Part shown: positions 34,592-40,917 of the stretch, piece by piece | Layout of the letters: each line of letters begins with the position of its first letter | How positions within the stretch are numbered: the stretch's first letter is position 1 | NCBI GenBank assembly: GCA_944391335.1 | Contig: CALXTF010000007.1 | Location: 1-52,405, forward strand | DNA: 52,405 nucleotides | Source: an uncultured Alphaproteobacteria bacterium | GTDB lineage: Bacteria; Pseudomonadota; Alphaproteobacteria; RF32; CAG-239 | Direction of reading: 5' to 3' | Position numbers and translations under genes: made by a program | Notes under the pieces: generated by a model | What the model saw: the letters and a program-made list of their open reading frames with translations, nothing else | Databases searched by the model: none | Told to the model about the DNA's origin: nothing

Positions 34592-35023
34592 TTAGAATAT
34601 TTCTAGAATTGCTTTAGCCTCATCACTCATTTTATCAGGAGACCAAGCTGGTTCCCAGACGACTTTTACTGTAACCACGCCGACTCCGCATAATCTTGCA
34701 ACCGCTTCTGCCGCATGTTGGGGTAAAATTCCGGCGACGGGACAAGTTGGAGCGGTTAATGTCATATCAATTTCAATATCGCCATTTTCTATCTGTCGAA
34801 TATCATAGATAAATCCCATATCATAAATATTTATGGGAATTTCCGGATCAGAAACTGTTTTTAAGGCTTCAACAATATCTTCTTTAGATGCTAATTTTGA
34901 ACCTTTTGGCAATGATTCGCCGGCAGTGGCTTCATATTCTTCGACCGGTGCCTGCGCTGCCAGAGCTTGAAGCAGTTCGGCTTCTTGATTTTCATCAAGC
35001 ATATTGTCTTTATTTTCTTTCAT
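34592..35023 (-). CDS. sufT: SufT/DUF59 iron-sulfur cluster assembly protein
   Basis: 143 residues. A polar N-terminal tail of about 45 residues leads to a MIP18/DUF59 domain: 'DPEIPINIYDMGFIYDI' and 'MTLTAPTCPVAGILPQHAAE', with a conserved Cys in the TCP motif. This family helps deliver or mature Fe-S clusters. It overlaps sufS by 4 bp and closes the suf operon, which makes the assignment firm. Confidence 0.9.
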   Translation of the reverse strand: MKENKDNMLDENQEAELLQALAAQAPVEEYEATAGESLPKGSKLASKEDIVEALKTVSDPEIPINIYDMGFIYDIRQIENGDIEIDMTLTAPTCPVAGILPQHAAEAVARLCGVGVVTVKVVWEPAWSPDKMSDEAKAILEIF

Positions 35024-36252
35024 TTATTCATCTCCATTTTTTTAAAAAAATCTTTTACTTTATTTAAGGCTTTAATAAAAGCATCAATATCTTCCGGTGT
35101 TGTATATAAGCCGAATGAAGCGCGAGCTAATGAAGTATATCCCATTCGATTAACAATAGGTTGAGCGCAATGATGTCCGGTACGAATCGCCACACCTTCC
35201 TTATCCAAAATGAAAGCAATATCTTGTGGATGAATATTAGCTAAGTCAAAAGAAATGACTCCTCCTTTATCTGGTGCGGTTCCTATCATTTTAAAACCTT
35301 TTATATCATAGAGTTTTGGTAAAGCATAATTCATTAACATTTTTTCATGAGCGGCAATATTTTTCATTCCCAATTTTTGCATATAGCACAAAGCCTCACC
35401 TAATCCGACGGCTTGTGCAATTGCAGGAGTTCCTGCCTCGAATCGAGCCGGAGGTTCGGCAAAATCCGTATGTTCGTAGGTTACCTTTTTAACCATATCT
35501 CCCCCCATTTGATACGGCGGCATTTTTTCCAAATGCTCATATTTGCCATACAAAACACCGATACCTGTCGGGCCATAAACTTTATGTCCGGAAAAAGCAA
35601 GAAAATCACAATTAATATCTTTAACATCGGTTGGTTGATGGACAATTGATTGGCAGGCGTCAACCAAACACAAAGCACCGACTTGATGTGCCGCGGCAGT
35701 AATTTCTTTTATGGGAAAAACGGTTCCTAAAACATTAGACATACCGGTTATTCCTACTAATTTGGTTTTAGAAGTTAATTCTCGATAAAAACTTTCCGAA
35801 TTATAACTACCATCATCGTTTACTTTAAAAAATTTAAGTTTACATCCGGTTTTATTGCAAACAACTTGCCATGGCACCAGATTTGCATGATGTTCTGCTT
35901 GAGAGAGCAAAATTTCATCATTTTCATGCAAATTCTGCATTCCCCATGTTGCCGCCACCAAATTAATACTTTCGGTTGCCGAACGGGTAAAAACAATTTC
36001 TTTTTCCTTGGCGTTGATAAAAGCCGCCACTTGAGTTCTTGCCTGTTCAAAATCCATTGTTGCTTGTTCTGACAAATAATAAGAACCACGATGCACATTA
36101 GAATAATGGGTACAATAAAATTGCATCATTTTATCAAGTACGGCTTTGGGTTTTTGAGCAGAAGCCGCCGTATCTAAAAACACATTAGTTTTTCCATTGA
36201 CATTTAGCATCAATTCCGGAAAATCTTTTTTTATTTCATAAACATCATACAT
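35020..36252 (-). CDS. sufS: Cysteine desulfurase SufS
   Basis: 410 residues, PLP enzyme of the aspartate aminotransferase fold. It removes sulfur from L-cysteine as a persulfide for cluster assembly. PLP Lys is in 'FLAFSGHKVYGPTGIGVLYG'; the persulfide Cys is in 'IRTGHHCAQPI', the shorter SufS-type loop. 'VFTRSATESINLVAATWG' is characteristic. It overlaps the hydrolase upstream by 8 bp and sufT downstream by 4 bp. No sufE or sufU is visible here, so the sulfur acceptor must be elsewhere or the SufBCD complex itself. Confidence 0.95.
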   Translation of the reverse strand: MYDVYEIKKDFPELMLNVNGKTNVFLDTAASAQKPKAVLDKMMQFYCTHYSNVHRGSYYLSEQATMDFEQARTQVAAFINAKEKEIVFTRSATESINLVAATWGMQNLHENDEILLSQAEHHANLVPWQVVCNKTGCKLKFFKVNDDGSYNSESFYRELTSKTKLVGITGMSNVLGTVFPIKEITAAAHQVGALCLVDACQSIVHQPTDVKDINCDFLAFSGHKVYGPTGIGVLYGKYEHLEKMPPYQMGGDMVKKVTYEHTDFAEPPARFEAGTPAIAQAVGLGEALCYMQKLGMKNIAAHEKMLMNYALPKLYDIKGFKMIGTAPDKGGVISFDLANIHPQDIAFILDKEGVAIRTGHHCAQPIVNRMGYTSLARASFGLYTTPEDIDAFIKALNKVKDFFKKMEMNK

Positions 36253-37027
36253 TTTCTTTTACCCATTCAAAAACGGTTTGATACAAATCTTGAGCATTTT
36301 GCTTTGTTTCATATAAATGTCCGCATGTTTTTAGAATAACCAATTGTTTTGAACATTGCAAACTTTCATATAATTTATGATTATTATAAAGGGTTGATGA
36401 GATATCTTGATCACCGGTTATAAGCAAAGTTTTACTTTTAATTTTTGCGGCTGCACGCACCAAATCATACCTCAGCATATCTTTTACCACATCAAATGAG
36501 AGCCAACCGTTCAATTCGGGGTGATTTTTATTTTCGCGATAAATTTTACCGTTTTTTTTCCACTGTTGATAGATTTCATTTTCATTGAGCAGCCGCGAAC
36601 GAATAAAATATTTACCGCCAACCATTGCCGATACGGGAACCAATAAATTAACCTGTTGCGGATAATCCGCGGCATATTTCAAAACACTTCCGCCACCTAA
36701 AGAATGTCCGCTTAAAGCAAATGGTTCATGATAAAAACTCTCTTTTTTTGCCCAATTGACAACCGTATGCAAATCTTCAATAAAAGAAGTTAATGTTGCT
36801 AATTCAAGCCGACCGTCACTGGCTCCAAAAGAATGACGAGAATCAAAAGAAACCACGACAAAACCATTATCGACAAAAGCTTGTAGTGGTTTACGCACCA
36901 TAATCTGACCTTTATGACCGCTCAAACCATGTTGAACAAAAGCCAATTTTCCATAAGCGGCATTTTCAAGTCCATCAATGGCGATTTCTAATTTTTGATT
37001 TTGTTGATTATATATATTAAATTTCAT
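36245..37027 (-). CDS. Alpha/beta hydrolase inside the suf operon
   Basis: 260 residues from ATG at 37027, which overlaps the end of sufD by 11 bp; the open frame upstream lies within sufD. Serine hydrolase fold with nucleophile elbow 'ALSGHSLGGGSVLKYA', an oxyanion-type 'FVQHGLSGHKG' strand, acid in 'LLITGDQDISS' and His in 'LKTCGHLYET'. No signal peptide, so cytoplasmic. The family includes esterases, thioesterases and peptidases; the substrate cannot be read. Overlapping coupling to sufD and sufS makes cotranslation with Fe-S genes certain but not a shared pathway. Confidence 0.82.
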   Translation of the reverse strand: MKFNIYNQQNQKLEIAIDGLENAAYGKLAFVQHGLSGHKGQIMVRKPLQAFVDNGFVVVSFDSRHSFGASDGRLELATLTSFIEDLHTVVNWAKKESFYHEPFALSGHSLGGGSVLKYAADYPQQVNLLVPVSAMVGGKYFIRSRLLNENEIYQQWKKNGKIYRENKNHPELNGWLSFDVVKDMLRYDLVRAAAKIKSKTLLITGDQDISSTLYNNHKLYESLQCSKQLVILKTCGHLYETKQNAQDLYQTVFEWVKENV

Positions 37028-38366
37028 TTTGCAGCCATTCTTGAATTTTGATATTATGAATTCTCGCCATAACATCAGTAAAATAGGCATTAATCAGCAT
37101 TTGTTTAGCGTCTTTTTCGCCAATACCTCTTGAACGCATATAAAATAATTGTTCTTGATCTAATTCTCCACAAGCAGCTCCGTGAGAACATTTGACATCA
37201 TCGGCAAAAATTTCCAACTCTGGTTTAACATCAACTTCTGCCGTATCGCTTAACAGAAGAGCTTTATGTAATTGACGACCTTCAGTTTTTTGCGCATCTT
37301 GCGCAATATAAATTTTACCTTGAAAGACGCCTTTTGCTTCACCGCCGACAACCCCTTTTATCAATTGTGAAGAATAAGTTTCGGGTGATAAATGTTCTAT
37401 ATCGGTTGTTGTATCCAAAGTTGCCCAACCATTCATTAAATAAGCGGCATTAACTTCGGCTTTGGCGTTTTTTTCGAGCAAGCGGACTTGTGTTTCCGAA
37501 CGCCCTAAATCCGCTCCTTTTTGCAGACAAAAACCGTTATATATTCCTTGTGTTTTAATTCTGACCGAATTAAGAGCCAAATGAACCGCTTTATAAGCCT
37601 CGTTTTGATAACGGCAATGATCAAGTTCCGCTCCCGCCCCCAAATAAATTTCGTTGACGATATTATTAAAGTAACGAGATTTTGGTTCACCACTGTAATG
37701 ATAATATTCGACCAATTCCGCTTTTGCATCATCTTCCAAAACAATCAAATTGCGAATATTAACCAATAAATTTTCTTGTCCGCCATATGTATGATTTATC
37801 AGGGCCAAAGGTTTATCCAATTTCGCGCTCTTATGAATATGGATAAAAAGTCCTTCTTCTAAATAAGCGGTATTAAGAGCCGCAAACGGATATTTTGCAT
37901 AATCAATATATTTTCCAAGCAAATGATTTTCTTCACCGATTGCAAAAGCTTCCATTAAAGTCATAATTTCGACTCCGCTTGGTGTTGCCGGATAAATCGG
38001 CACGAATTTACCATTTTCAAAATGCAGTTCATAAGCTGCGAACGGCAAATGTTTTTTATTGCGACATTTACATTCATGTTTTTCTCTTTCCTCGTGGTGA
38101 TGACCGCAAGAACAACTTTCACCGTGTTGATGACAATTTTCACCGCAACAACAATGTTCTTCAATTTCTTTGCCTTCAATTTCCTCCAAAAACTTTGACG
38201 GTTCGACAACAAAATCATCAACTTTTAACGAATGTAATTTTGTATATTTCCATGCTTGGGTTTTAACTGTCGGCATCCAAAACGACGCACGAGCTTTTTC
38301 TCTCAAGCCTTCTATTCGCGGTATATTATAACCGAATAATTTCACCTCTTGTATTAAACCTGACAT
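37017..38366 (-). CDS. sufD: Fe-S cluster scaffold protein SufD with Cys/His-rich insert
   Basis: 449 residues. The SufD beta-helix core is clear: 'AYLMNGWATLDTTTDIEHLS', 'KGVFQGKIYIAQDAQKTEG', 'LLLSDTAEVDVKPELEIFAD' and 'CSHGAACGELDQEQLFYMRSRG'. It partners SufB and SufC in the SufBC2D assembly complex. Residues 71-101 hold an insert with 8 Cys and 7 His (C72, C73, C74, C78, C85, C87, C99, C101), right after the N-terminal helical part and before the core. Such a stretch is not part of classical SufD. Order sufC-sufD-hydrolase-sufS, one base from sufC. Confidence 0.93.
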   Translation of the reverse strand: MSGLIQEVKLFGYNIPRIEGLREKARASFWMPTVKTQAWKYTKLHSLKVDDFVVEPSKFLEEIEGKEIEEHCCCGENCHQHGESCSCGHHHEEREKHECKCRNKKHLPFAAYELHFENGKFVPIYPATPSGVEIMTLMEAFAIGEENHLLGKYIDYAKYPFAALNTAYLEEGLFIHIHKSAKLDKPLALINHTYGGQENLLVNIRNLIVLEDDAKAELVEYYHYSGEPKSRYFNNIVNEIYLGAGAELDHCRYQNEAYKAVHLALNSVRIKTQGIYNGFCLQKGADLGRSETQVRLLEKNAKAEVNAAYLMNGWATLDTTTDIEHLSPETYSSQLIKGVVGGEAKGVFQGKIYIAQDAQKTEGRQLHKALLLSDTAEVDVKPELEIFADDVKCSHGAACGELDQEQLFYMRSRGIGEKDAKQMLINAYFTDVMARIHNIKIQEWLQNEI

Positions 38367-38367
38367 T

Positions 38368-39126
38368 TTATTTGTCTTTCACAAATTCGGCATAGCCTTT
38401 TTCTTCCAGTTCTAAAGCCAGATTTTTATCGCCTGATTTAACGATACGGCCATCGGCAAAGACATGAACAAAATCGGGAACAATATAATTTAACAAGCGT
38501 TGATAATGAGTTATAACCAACAACGAACGTTTATTATCCCGAAGATTATTCACGCCTTCGGCTACGATTTTTAAGGCGTCAATATCGAGTCCCGAATCGG
38601 CTTCATCCAAAATTGCTAATTGAGGTTTTAAAACAGCCATTTGCAAAGTTTCCAAACGTTTTTTTTCTCCTCCGGAGAAGCCGACATTGACTGGTCTTTT
38701 AAGCATTTCCGCATCAATTCCCAATTTTCGTCCTTCTTCTCTGAGCATTTTAATAAATTCCATAGTATCGAGTTCAGGTTGATTATGATATTTACGTTGA
38801 GCATTAACGGCATATTTTAAGAAGCTGGTAACTGGAACCCCTGGAATTTCGACTGGATATTGCATAATAAGGAATATTCCTTCACAAGCTCTTTCTTCCA
38901 CGGACATTGTCATTAAATTTTTGCCGCGGAATTTAATAACGCCGGAAGTTATCTCATAGCCTGGTTTACCACACAACAGATAAGACAAAGTCGATTTTCC
39001 GGCTCCATTTGGTCCCATGATTGCATGAACCTCGCCTTCATTAATAGTCAAATTAAAACCTTTAATAATTTCTTTTCCGGCGACACCGGCATATAAATCT
39101 TCTATTTCGAGTAAAGGGGTATTCAT
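38368..39126 (-). CDS. sufC: Fe-S cluster assembly ATPase SufC
   Basis: 252 residues, ABC-type ATPase without membrane spans. Walker A '[15 protein letters not shown]', Q-loop, signature 'FSGGEKKRLETLQMAV', Walker B 'LAILDEADSGLDIDALK' and switch His in 'LLVITHYQRLL'. It drives conformational change in SufBD during cluster assembly. Starts one base after the MazG-like gene, ends one base before sufD. Confidence 0.96.
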   Translation of the reverse strand: MNTPLLEIEDLYAGVAGKEIIKGFNLTINEGEVHAIMGPNGAGKSTLSYLLCGKPGYEITSGVIKFRGKNLMTMSVEERACEGIFLIMQYPVEIPGVPVTSFLKYAVNAQRKYHNQPELDTMEFIKMLREEGRKLGIDAEMLKRPVNVGFSGGEKKRLETLQMAVLKPQLAILDEADSGLDIDALKIVAEGVNNLRDNKRSLLVITHYQRLLNYIVPDFVHVFADGRIVKSGDKNLALELEEKGYAEFVKDK

Positions 39127-39127
39127 T

Positions 39128-39430
39128 TTATTTTTCCTCTGTTTTGGGTTGTATTTTATCCCACTCGTTTAATCTGTTTTCTATCACTTTTATTTTATCG
39201 GCTTTATAAGCGGCGACTTTTTCTTCAATTTGATAATTTTCTTTTAATTGTTCAAGCATAATTTCGACATCGGCAGTTTCTTCAATAATCTCAGAGATAT
39301 TATTTTTTTTGCGATTGATGTTTTTTAATATTTCTTTCATCAATTCTGACATTTCTTCAACCACCATTAACATTTGCGCTTTTTCGCCCCAAGTTTTAAG
39401 GGCGCGTTTTAGAATAGGATTTATCATCAA
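39128..39430 (-). CDS. MazG-like all-alpha NTP pyrophosphohydrolase
   Basis: 100 residues. The metal-binding pattern of the all-alpha NTP-PPase superfamily is visible: '[16 protein letters not shown]' (EExxE) and '[16 protein letters not shown]' (ExxD) in two helices. These enzymes hydrolyse (d)NTPs to monophosphates and PPi, sometimes housecleaning damaged nucleotides. It sits between sufB and sufC, overlapping sufB by 4 bp, an unusual place. Small single-domain type, likely a dimer. MazG-like rather than full MazG because it has only one short domain; a phage-type origin is possible. Confidence 0.75.
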
Positions 39431-40878
39431 CCCACACTTCCTTCCAAACTAATATTGATAAGTTTTGCCGCCTCAATAGCAAATTCCATCGGCAGCTGTT
39501 GCATAACTTCTTTGCAAAAACCGTTAATAATTAAACTGACTGCGTTTTCTGCGGAAATTCCACGACTTTGACAATAAAAAAGTTGTTCATCGCTGATTTT
39601 GGATGTTGTTGCTTCATGTTCCAAAGTTGCCGTTCGACTTCTGTTTTCGACATAAGGCACGGTGTGCGAACCACAGGTTGAACCTATCAACAAACTATCA
39701 CATTGCGAATAGTTGCGGGCGTTATCGGCAGAAGATGCGACTTTGACTAAACCGCGATAGGTTTGATTGGAAAATCCGGCAGAAATACCTTTTGAGATAA
39801 TTTTTGAAGTTGTGTTTTTACCGATATGGATCATTTTAGTACCGGTATCTGCTTGTTGATAATTATTGGTTAACGCCACCGAATAAAATTCGCCGATTGA
39901 GTTATCTCCCTGCAACACGCAGGACGGGTATTTCCATGTAACAGCCGAACCTGTTTCGACCTGTGTCCATGACACTTTAGAATTAATTCCTCTGCAAGCC
40001 GCGCGTTTGGTTACAAAATTATAAACCCCGCCCTTACCGTTTTTATCTCCCGGATACCAGTTTTGCACAGTTGAATATTTAACTTCGGCGTTATCCAACA
40101 CCACAATTTCGACGATGGCTGCATGTAATTGATTTTCGTCTCTTTGGGGTGCTGTACAGCCTTCAAGATAAGACACATAACTCCCTTCTTCTGCCACAAT
40201 CAACGTCCGTTCGAACTGTCCGGTATTTTTAGCGTTGATACGAAAATAAGTTGATAATTCCATTGGGCAACGCACGCCTTTGGGAATATAAACAAAAGAA
40301 CCATCGGTAAACACCGCCGAATTAAGACAGGCAAAAAAATTGTCGGTATAAGGCACAACCGAGCCTAAATATTTTTTAACCAATTCGGGATGTTCTTTAA
40401 CTGCTTCGGAAATAGAACAAAAAACAACACCTTTTTCAGCCAGTTTGGCGCGGTAAGTCGTTGCTACCGACACACTATCAAACACGGCATCTACGGCGAC
40501 CACGCCTGCCAAGACTTCTTGCTCTTTTAAGGGGATTCCCAATTTATCATAAGTTGCCAAAATTTTTTTATCGACTTCATCCAAACTTTTGGGAGCGGTC
40601 TTGGTCTTGGGTGCTGAGTAATAATATAAATTTTGATAATCAATTTTATCATAAACCAGTTTAGCCCAAGTTGGCTCAGTCATCGTTTGCCAAAATTCAA
40701 AAGCTTTCAATCGTCTTTCCAACAGCCATTCAGGTTCACCCTTTTTAGCGGAAATCAAGCGGATAATATCCGGATTCAATCCCTTTGGAGCTGTTTCGCT
40801 TTGAATATCGGTTATGAAACCATATTTATATTTATCGCCGCTTTCATCAATAACTTCCAGTTTTTTACTTTCTGTCAT
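39427..40878 (-). CDS. sufB: Fe-S cluster assembly protein SufB
   Basis: 483 residues from ATG at 40878 with GGAAAAG ahead; an in-frame TTG at 40890 overlaps this site. Scaffold on which the cluster forms. Diagnostic segments: '[20 protein letters not shown]', '[20 protein letters not shown]', '[20 protein letters not shown]', '[17 protein letters not shown]' and '[18 protein letters not shown]'. First gene of a seven-gene suf operon; no iscR/sufR or sufA precedes it in the window. Confidence 0.96.
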
Positions 40879-40917
40879 TTTCTTTTCCAAGTAAAAATTG
40901 CACTTATTTTGAACGAC

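Follow-up and report, generated by a model that had tools for sequence, protein, structure and literature searches.

The suf operon described here raises the question of why a SufD protein should carry a run of 31 residues crowded with cysteine and histidine. SufD of E. coli is described as being without a known motif or cofactor (PMC6006206). We found the run in a stretch of DNA of 52,405 nucleotides (the window) from an uncultured alphaproteobacterium; the assembly that contains this sufD is a 1.33-Mb genome. In the window, sufD shares a locus with sufB, sufC and sufS, and the order of the operon is sufB, a 100-aa ORF, sufC, sufD, an alpha/beta hydrolase gene, sufS, and a sufT-like gene for a DUF59 protein (Table 1).

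Table 1. Positions of the suf genes in the window and of the Cys/His-rich run and linker within sufD.
Feature	Positions	Strand	Description or basis
sufD	37017..38366	minus	449 aa; TIGR01981, SUFBD_core; normal apart from the insert
Cys/His-rich run, SufD residues 71-101, including the CxC-H core CSCGHHH	38064..38156	minus	translation
SufD linker, N-domain to beta-helix, residues ~43-110	38037..38240	minus	family alignment and linker lengths
sufB, scaffold partner of SufD	39427..40890	minus	phmmer to 5awf_A, E 1.8e-208
100-aa ORF, between sufB and sufC	39128..39430	minus	operon comparison
sufC, ABC ATPase of the SUF scaffold	38368..39126	minus	Pfam ABC_tran and operon position
alpha/beta hydrolase gene, between sufD and sufS	36245..37042	minus	Pfam Hydrolase_4
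sufS, cysteine desulfurase	35020..36252	minus	Pfam Aminotran_5, E 7.5e-143
sufT-like DUF59 protein (FeS_assembly_P)	34592..35023	minus	Pfam PF01883

A SufD with a long Cys/His-rich linker

The protein in the window is recognizable as a SufD. It scored 269.5 bits against TIGR01981, above the NCBI cut-off of 222, and matched PF01458 (SUFBD_core) at 7.5e-71. Residues C393 and H395 were invariant in an alignment of 51 SufDs (alignment A1) and aligned with Cys358 and His360 of E. coli SufD. H395, the conserved interface histidine, is in a CSHGA context.

The run itself, HCCCGENCHQHGESCSCGHHHEEREKHECKC, makes up residues 71-101. A sequence-only reading of the window had counted 8 Cys and 7 His there, and a direct count in the translation gave the same numbers. 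That reading had also placed the run between the N-terminal helices and the beta-helix core and had taken the adjoining SufB and SufC to be normal. The position was borne out, and both neighbors look normal. We compared the run to the background of its own genome, using 445 kb (about one third of the genome) with 436 approximate genes, in which Cys and His make up 3.0% of residues. The run was the richest segment of 31 residues, with 15 Cys plus His; the next best had 10. The binomial probability of at least 15 Cys plus His in 31 residues is 2.5e-15 per segment.

The run lies in a linker that is longer than usual. With alignment-based boundaries, the linker spans 61-73 aa in the genus of the window. 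It is shorter in relatives that do not have the run (26-39 aa) and in outgroups (28-34 aa). Thus, the net extra length of the insert is ~30-40 aa.

Structure prediction gave a normal SufD fold with a loop that is predicted to be disordered. An AlphaFold2 model of the window SufD, made from the alignment of 51 SufDs, had a mean pLDDT of 91, with values below 50 at residues 71-73, 75-86 and 88-98. A second AlphaFold2 model, of a relative from another genus with a shorter insert, had a mean pLDDT of 92, and residues 64-78 were below 50. The rest of the SufD fold is ordinary; in the model a short helix is followed by the loop and then by the first beta strand. The model of the window SufD matched the solved structures of E. 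coli SufD (5awf_B, 2zu0 and 1vh4) with TM scores of 0.77-0.79 (0.79 for 5awf_B). Both models are metal-free, and the loop may fold when metal binds. Overall, the window SufD has the same fold, core domain (TIGR01981), operon partners and interface residues as E. coli SufD, but its linker is ~30-40 residues longer and packed with Cys and His.

The other genes of the operon have features of their own. Among the operons compared, just two had the hydrolase gene between sufD and sufS, that of the window and that of a g13 genome (genera of the family are numbered g1-g16), and the gene had no tie to the insert. The 100-aa ORF had no Pfam match above the cut-off; relatives of it occupy the same position between sufB and sufC in several other genera.

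E. coli SufB, a paralogue of SufD, likewise has clustered Cys in its N-terminal linker: a CxxCxxxC motif (CGNCDDTC, after YYSAP). In contrast to the SufD loop, this motif has three Cys and no His and is on SufB, and the two linkers are taken to be equivalent in position because the proteins are paralogues. The SufB in the window does not have CxxCxxxC. Therefore, in the window it is SufD, rather than SufB, that has the Cys cluster.

Distribution of the loop and selection on its ligands

The loop was widespread in the family to which the window belongs. A search of family genomes, with SufB counted too, gave a match in 123 of 126 genomes, and our family sample consisted of 95 SufDs covering all 16 genera. 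A Cys/His-rich linker was present in 67 of the 95, from 11 genera (g1-g10 and g14); these linkers had 2-12 Cys and at least 4 Cys plus His. In contrast, the 28 non-carriers (g11, g12, g13, g15 and g16) had at most 2 Cys plus His, leaving a clean gap between the two groups. Short linkers in g3, g4, g5 and g14 retain a mini-motif, e.g., CDGHCHCH or CSCGCNCCHH. The named relatives are MAGs of Alphaproteobacteria from rumen and gut, which would fit the GTDB order RF32. The sequence-only reading had made its case depend on close relatives, and these carry the insert, have kept the Cys, and show the CxC core again.

Two records need comment. Genome G050 has a second SufD at a contig end (L037, G050:C1:34152-35510) that is closely like the SufDs of genus g10; the contig is probably a contaminant. 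The public record JAISVX010000002.1 (L128) is titled Lactobacillaceae and encodes a SufD that is 47% identical to that of the window; the bin is probably mislabelled.

We placed carriers and non-carriers on a SufD tree computed without the linker. All 28 non-carriers formed one nested clade (SH-aLRT 96). With three Cys as the threshold, presence and absence required 3 changes on this tree; if the two-Cys forms of g3 are counted as carriers, the number would fall to about 2, that is, approximately one gain and one loss. The tree thus suggests, roughly, a gain of the loop near the base of this one alphaproteobacterial family, followed by one loss. Support for the deeper branches is only 81-87, and so events near the root cannot be ordered with confidence.

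Outside the family we found no SufD with the insert. We collected 60 SufD loci from other alphaproteobacterial families, along with outgroup loci, and a script could read the linker in 56 of them. In nearly all of the 56, the 35 residues that follow the WKYT motif include no more than one Cys, and the maximum was 2. Many of these linkers are rich in Ala and Pro. The insert was not present in SufD of the only genome from the same order but another family, nor in ~85 SufDs elsewhere in the class and phylum. We also searched 398 genomes of the phylum with a profile of carrier linkers. The window scored 79.7 bits, no other genome scored above 36 bits, and none of the 29 best SufDs from outside the family had a Cys cluster. 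A search with an exact DNA pattern of the insert matched the window genome only, but this pattern was too strict. As parallel cases we considered alphaproteobacteria outside the family that have no A-type carriers; none had the insert, and several of their SufD ORFs were N-terminally shortened. In five of these genomes (G147, G164, G198, G214 and G215; loci L222-L226) the SufD ORFs are 210-257 aa and the N-terminal part is missing. In the searched sample, the insert looks restricted to the family, judging from these comparisons. Ordinary SufDs do not have it, as the sequence-only reading had maintained. The insert alone had no match in Pfam, NCBIfam or PDB, and we found no relevant report of a Cys- or His-rich SufD in the open-access literature, which leaves out most subscription journals.

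The loop varies in size while its ligands are retained. Cys number and linker length differ even among close relatives; near-identical SufDs from g10 have 4 to 9 linker Cys, through gain and loss of units like CHCHEEG. In 22 within-genus pairs, 87% of linker Cys were conserved, compared to ~60% of other linker residues (Fisher p 1.8e-10). Because aligners favor Cys matches, we repeated the comparison, with codons, on gap-free pairs (13 pairs of equal length). There were 15 synonymous and 6 nonsynonymous changes at Cys codons, and 18 synonymous and 11 nonsynonymous changes at His codons, where the neutral expectation is that 11-24% of changes are synonymous, and 12-24% for Cys codons. In addition, CxC occurred 158 times in the inserts, compared to 78 +/- 7 times after shuffling, and CC was rarer than in the shuffles; these counts are uncorrected for relatedness. 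Alignment A2, which contains 18 carriers of different genera, has invariant CxC columns and the consensus CxCGxxCxCxHH, and the CxC core often has a His after it. These results show that the Cys of the loop are under purifying selection, and the His less strongly so. The target of selection is ligand content and local spacing and not one exact sequence.

Fe-S assembly proteins of the family

We searched the 126 family genomes for other Fe-S assembly proteins. SufE was present in 120, and SufE of the window genome keeps its Cys (in a CQSQVW context). We found no genuine IscU or SufU in any of the 126, just 13 weak matches. A-type carriers (PF01521) were present in 0 of 126, whereas a search of the same type detected them in 125 of 140 other alphaproteobacteria; the window genome had no PF01521 match. 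Frataxin was detected in 0 of 126 genomes, but its absence is weak evidence because it was found in only 1 of 14 control genomes. Nfu was present in 116 of 126 genomes, both with and without the loop, and we saw no loss of Nfu in loop carriers.

The status of SufE, IscU/SufU, A-type carriers, frataxin and Nfu is alike in carriers and non-carriers, and therefore none of these explains the distribution of the loop. We rejected missing frataxin or A-type carriers as the cause of its presence or absence, as neither was detected in carriers or in non-carriers; at most, their absence was a background for the original gain. We also compared 20 neighborhoods for ORFs of 50 aa or longer, and the suf operons of non-carriers did not have a small Cys-rich gene that might compensate.

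Candidate functions of the loop

We think that the selected property is probably metal binding. A loop rich in Cys, His and acidic residues would be expected to bind several thiophilic or borderline divalent metal ions, and a tethered multi-site metal binder on the SUF scaffold would be the most economical reading. Disordered Cys/His tails bind metals, and the C-terminal tail of SlyD and SmtA are examples of disordered Cys/His-rich metal tails and bacterial metallothioneins. The SufD loop shares with these mixed Cys, His and acidic residues, CxC units, flexibility and variable length. It differs from them in lying inside SufD and in having no sequence match to a described family. The metal binding proposed in the sequence-only reading is therefore plausible, and the evidence for selection now backs it. 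That reading had also called the run a fused metallochaperone-like segment. This was overstated: the loop has no recognizable metallochaperone domain. It is predicted to be disordered and is variable in length and Cys number, also among very close relatives, which would suit a multi-site buffer or a ligand-rich tether better than a defined chaperone site. The range of Cys number in g10 is as expected for a buffer.

Iron would be the metal of most relevance at a SUF scaffold, and metal might be transferred from the loop to the SufB-SufD site. According to a review, genetics tie SufD to iron acquisition, and deletion of sufD lowers scaffold iron; it adds that the iron donor of SUF is unknown and that iron binding by any SufD is undemonstrated (PMC6006206). 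Our preferred reading, which we hold tentatively, is a clade-specific, selected, flexible multi-site metal-binding loop that most plausibly buffers Fe(II) locally for SufBC2D or donates it. That the bound metal is iron and serves cluster assembly is likewise a tentative suggestion. A more speculative possibility is that SufD is its own iron donor, with a tethered, selected, disordered Fe(II) loop feeding the SufB-SufD cluster site in a family in which frataxin and A-type carriers were undetected. Two comparisons bear on how much the loop could contribute. The CxxCxxxC of E. coli SufB was at first proposed to be a cluster site, but its deletion later showed that it is dispensable (PMC6006206), and so a Cys motif in the N-terminal linker need not serve assembly. 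The loop is also not essential to a SUF system of this kind because it was lost in a clade with a similar suf operon and in which frataxin was likewise undetected.

Other explanations have to be weighed against the local iron buffer or donor, and the nearest is that the loop binds or sequesters a metal other than iron (Zn, Cu or Ni). Like a small metallothionein, it would then buffer that metal or shield the assembly site from mismetallation. The composition of the loop does not single out iron; binding of Zn, Cu or Ni would be as good or better. Mixed Cys/His and CxC units resemble generic Zn-, Cu- or Ni-binding tails, a variable number of ligand units suits storage or shielding, and SufD may be an abundant carrier in cells that have only SUF. 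We nonetheless consider another metal rather doubtful, since any protein could carry a storage tail, yet the 445 kb had no other stretch as rich, and since the loop matched no known metallothionein or metal-tail family. It is improbable, and clearly more so, that the loop is a functionless, low-complexity expansion that arose by repeat slippage in a hypervariable linker and was tolerated. The units like CHCHEEG are repeat-like and change in copy number among close relatives, the linker is naturally variable across the Alphaproteobacteria, and the related SufB motif is dispensable. However, an expansion of this kind does not fit the synonymous excess at Cys and His codons, the retention of Cys over many genera as their neighbors change, the excess of CxC and deficit of CC relative to shuffles, or a single origin followed by long retention.

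Roles for the loop thiols in holding clusters or in thiol or persulfide chemistry are, taken together, improbable as well. In one version, the loop would hold or hand over a nascent Fe-S cluster, substituting for the missing SufA, IscA or ErpA. The absence of A-type carriers from the family fits this idea, as does the CxC core of the loop, which resembles the CxC ligand pair that these carriers (PF01521) use in Fe-S delivery. But the loop has no homology or common fold with them, is disordered, and had no match to the Fe-S_biosyn domain (PF01521) when the insert was compared to Pfam. Moreover, the clade without the loop also has no A-type carriers, Nfu is available as an alternative carrier with or without the loop, many bacterial lineages do without A-type carriers (PMC2682760), and a variable number of Cys is ill-suited to a defined cluster site. 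It is thus unlikely that the loop stands in for A-type carriers. Least probable of all is a persulfide acceptor or sulfur relay in place of SufE or SufU, which might be suggested by many Cys near the scaffold in a family with no genuine IscU or SufU. SufE is present in the window genome, where it keeps its Cys, and in nearly all of the others, which excludes replacement. In addition, a persulfide relay requires one or two Cys and no paired His, whereas the His of the loop are also conserved.

The Cys/His-rich SufD is plausibly a variant of the known SUF system, and we offer the iron-donor idea as a hypothesis. The gut bacteria that the insert marks are a poorly known group, and their Fe-S toolkit is unusually reduced, with IscU, frataxin and A-type carriers undetected. 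The combination of a natural, selected metal-ligand loop, carrier species, sister species that have lost it, and a single deletable loop makes the question of SufD and iron directly testable. If the hypothesis is true, an iron-donor loop on SufD would be a built-in answer to how the SUF scaffold obtains iron.
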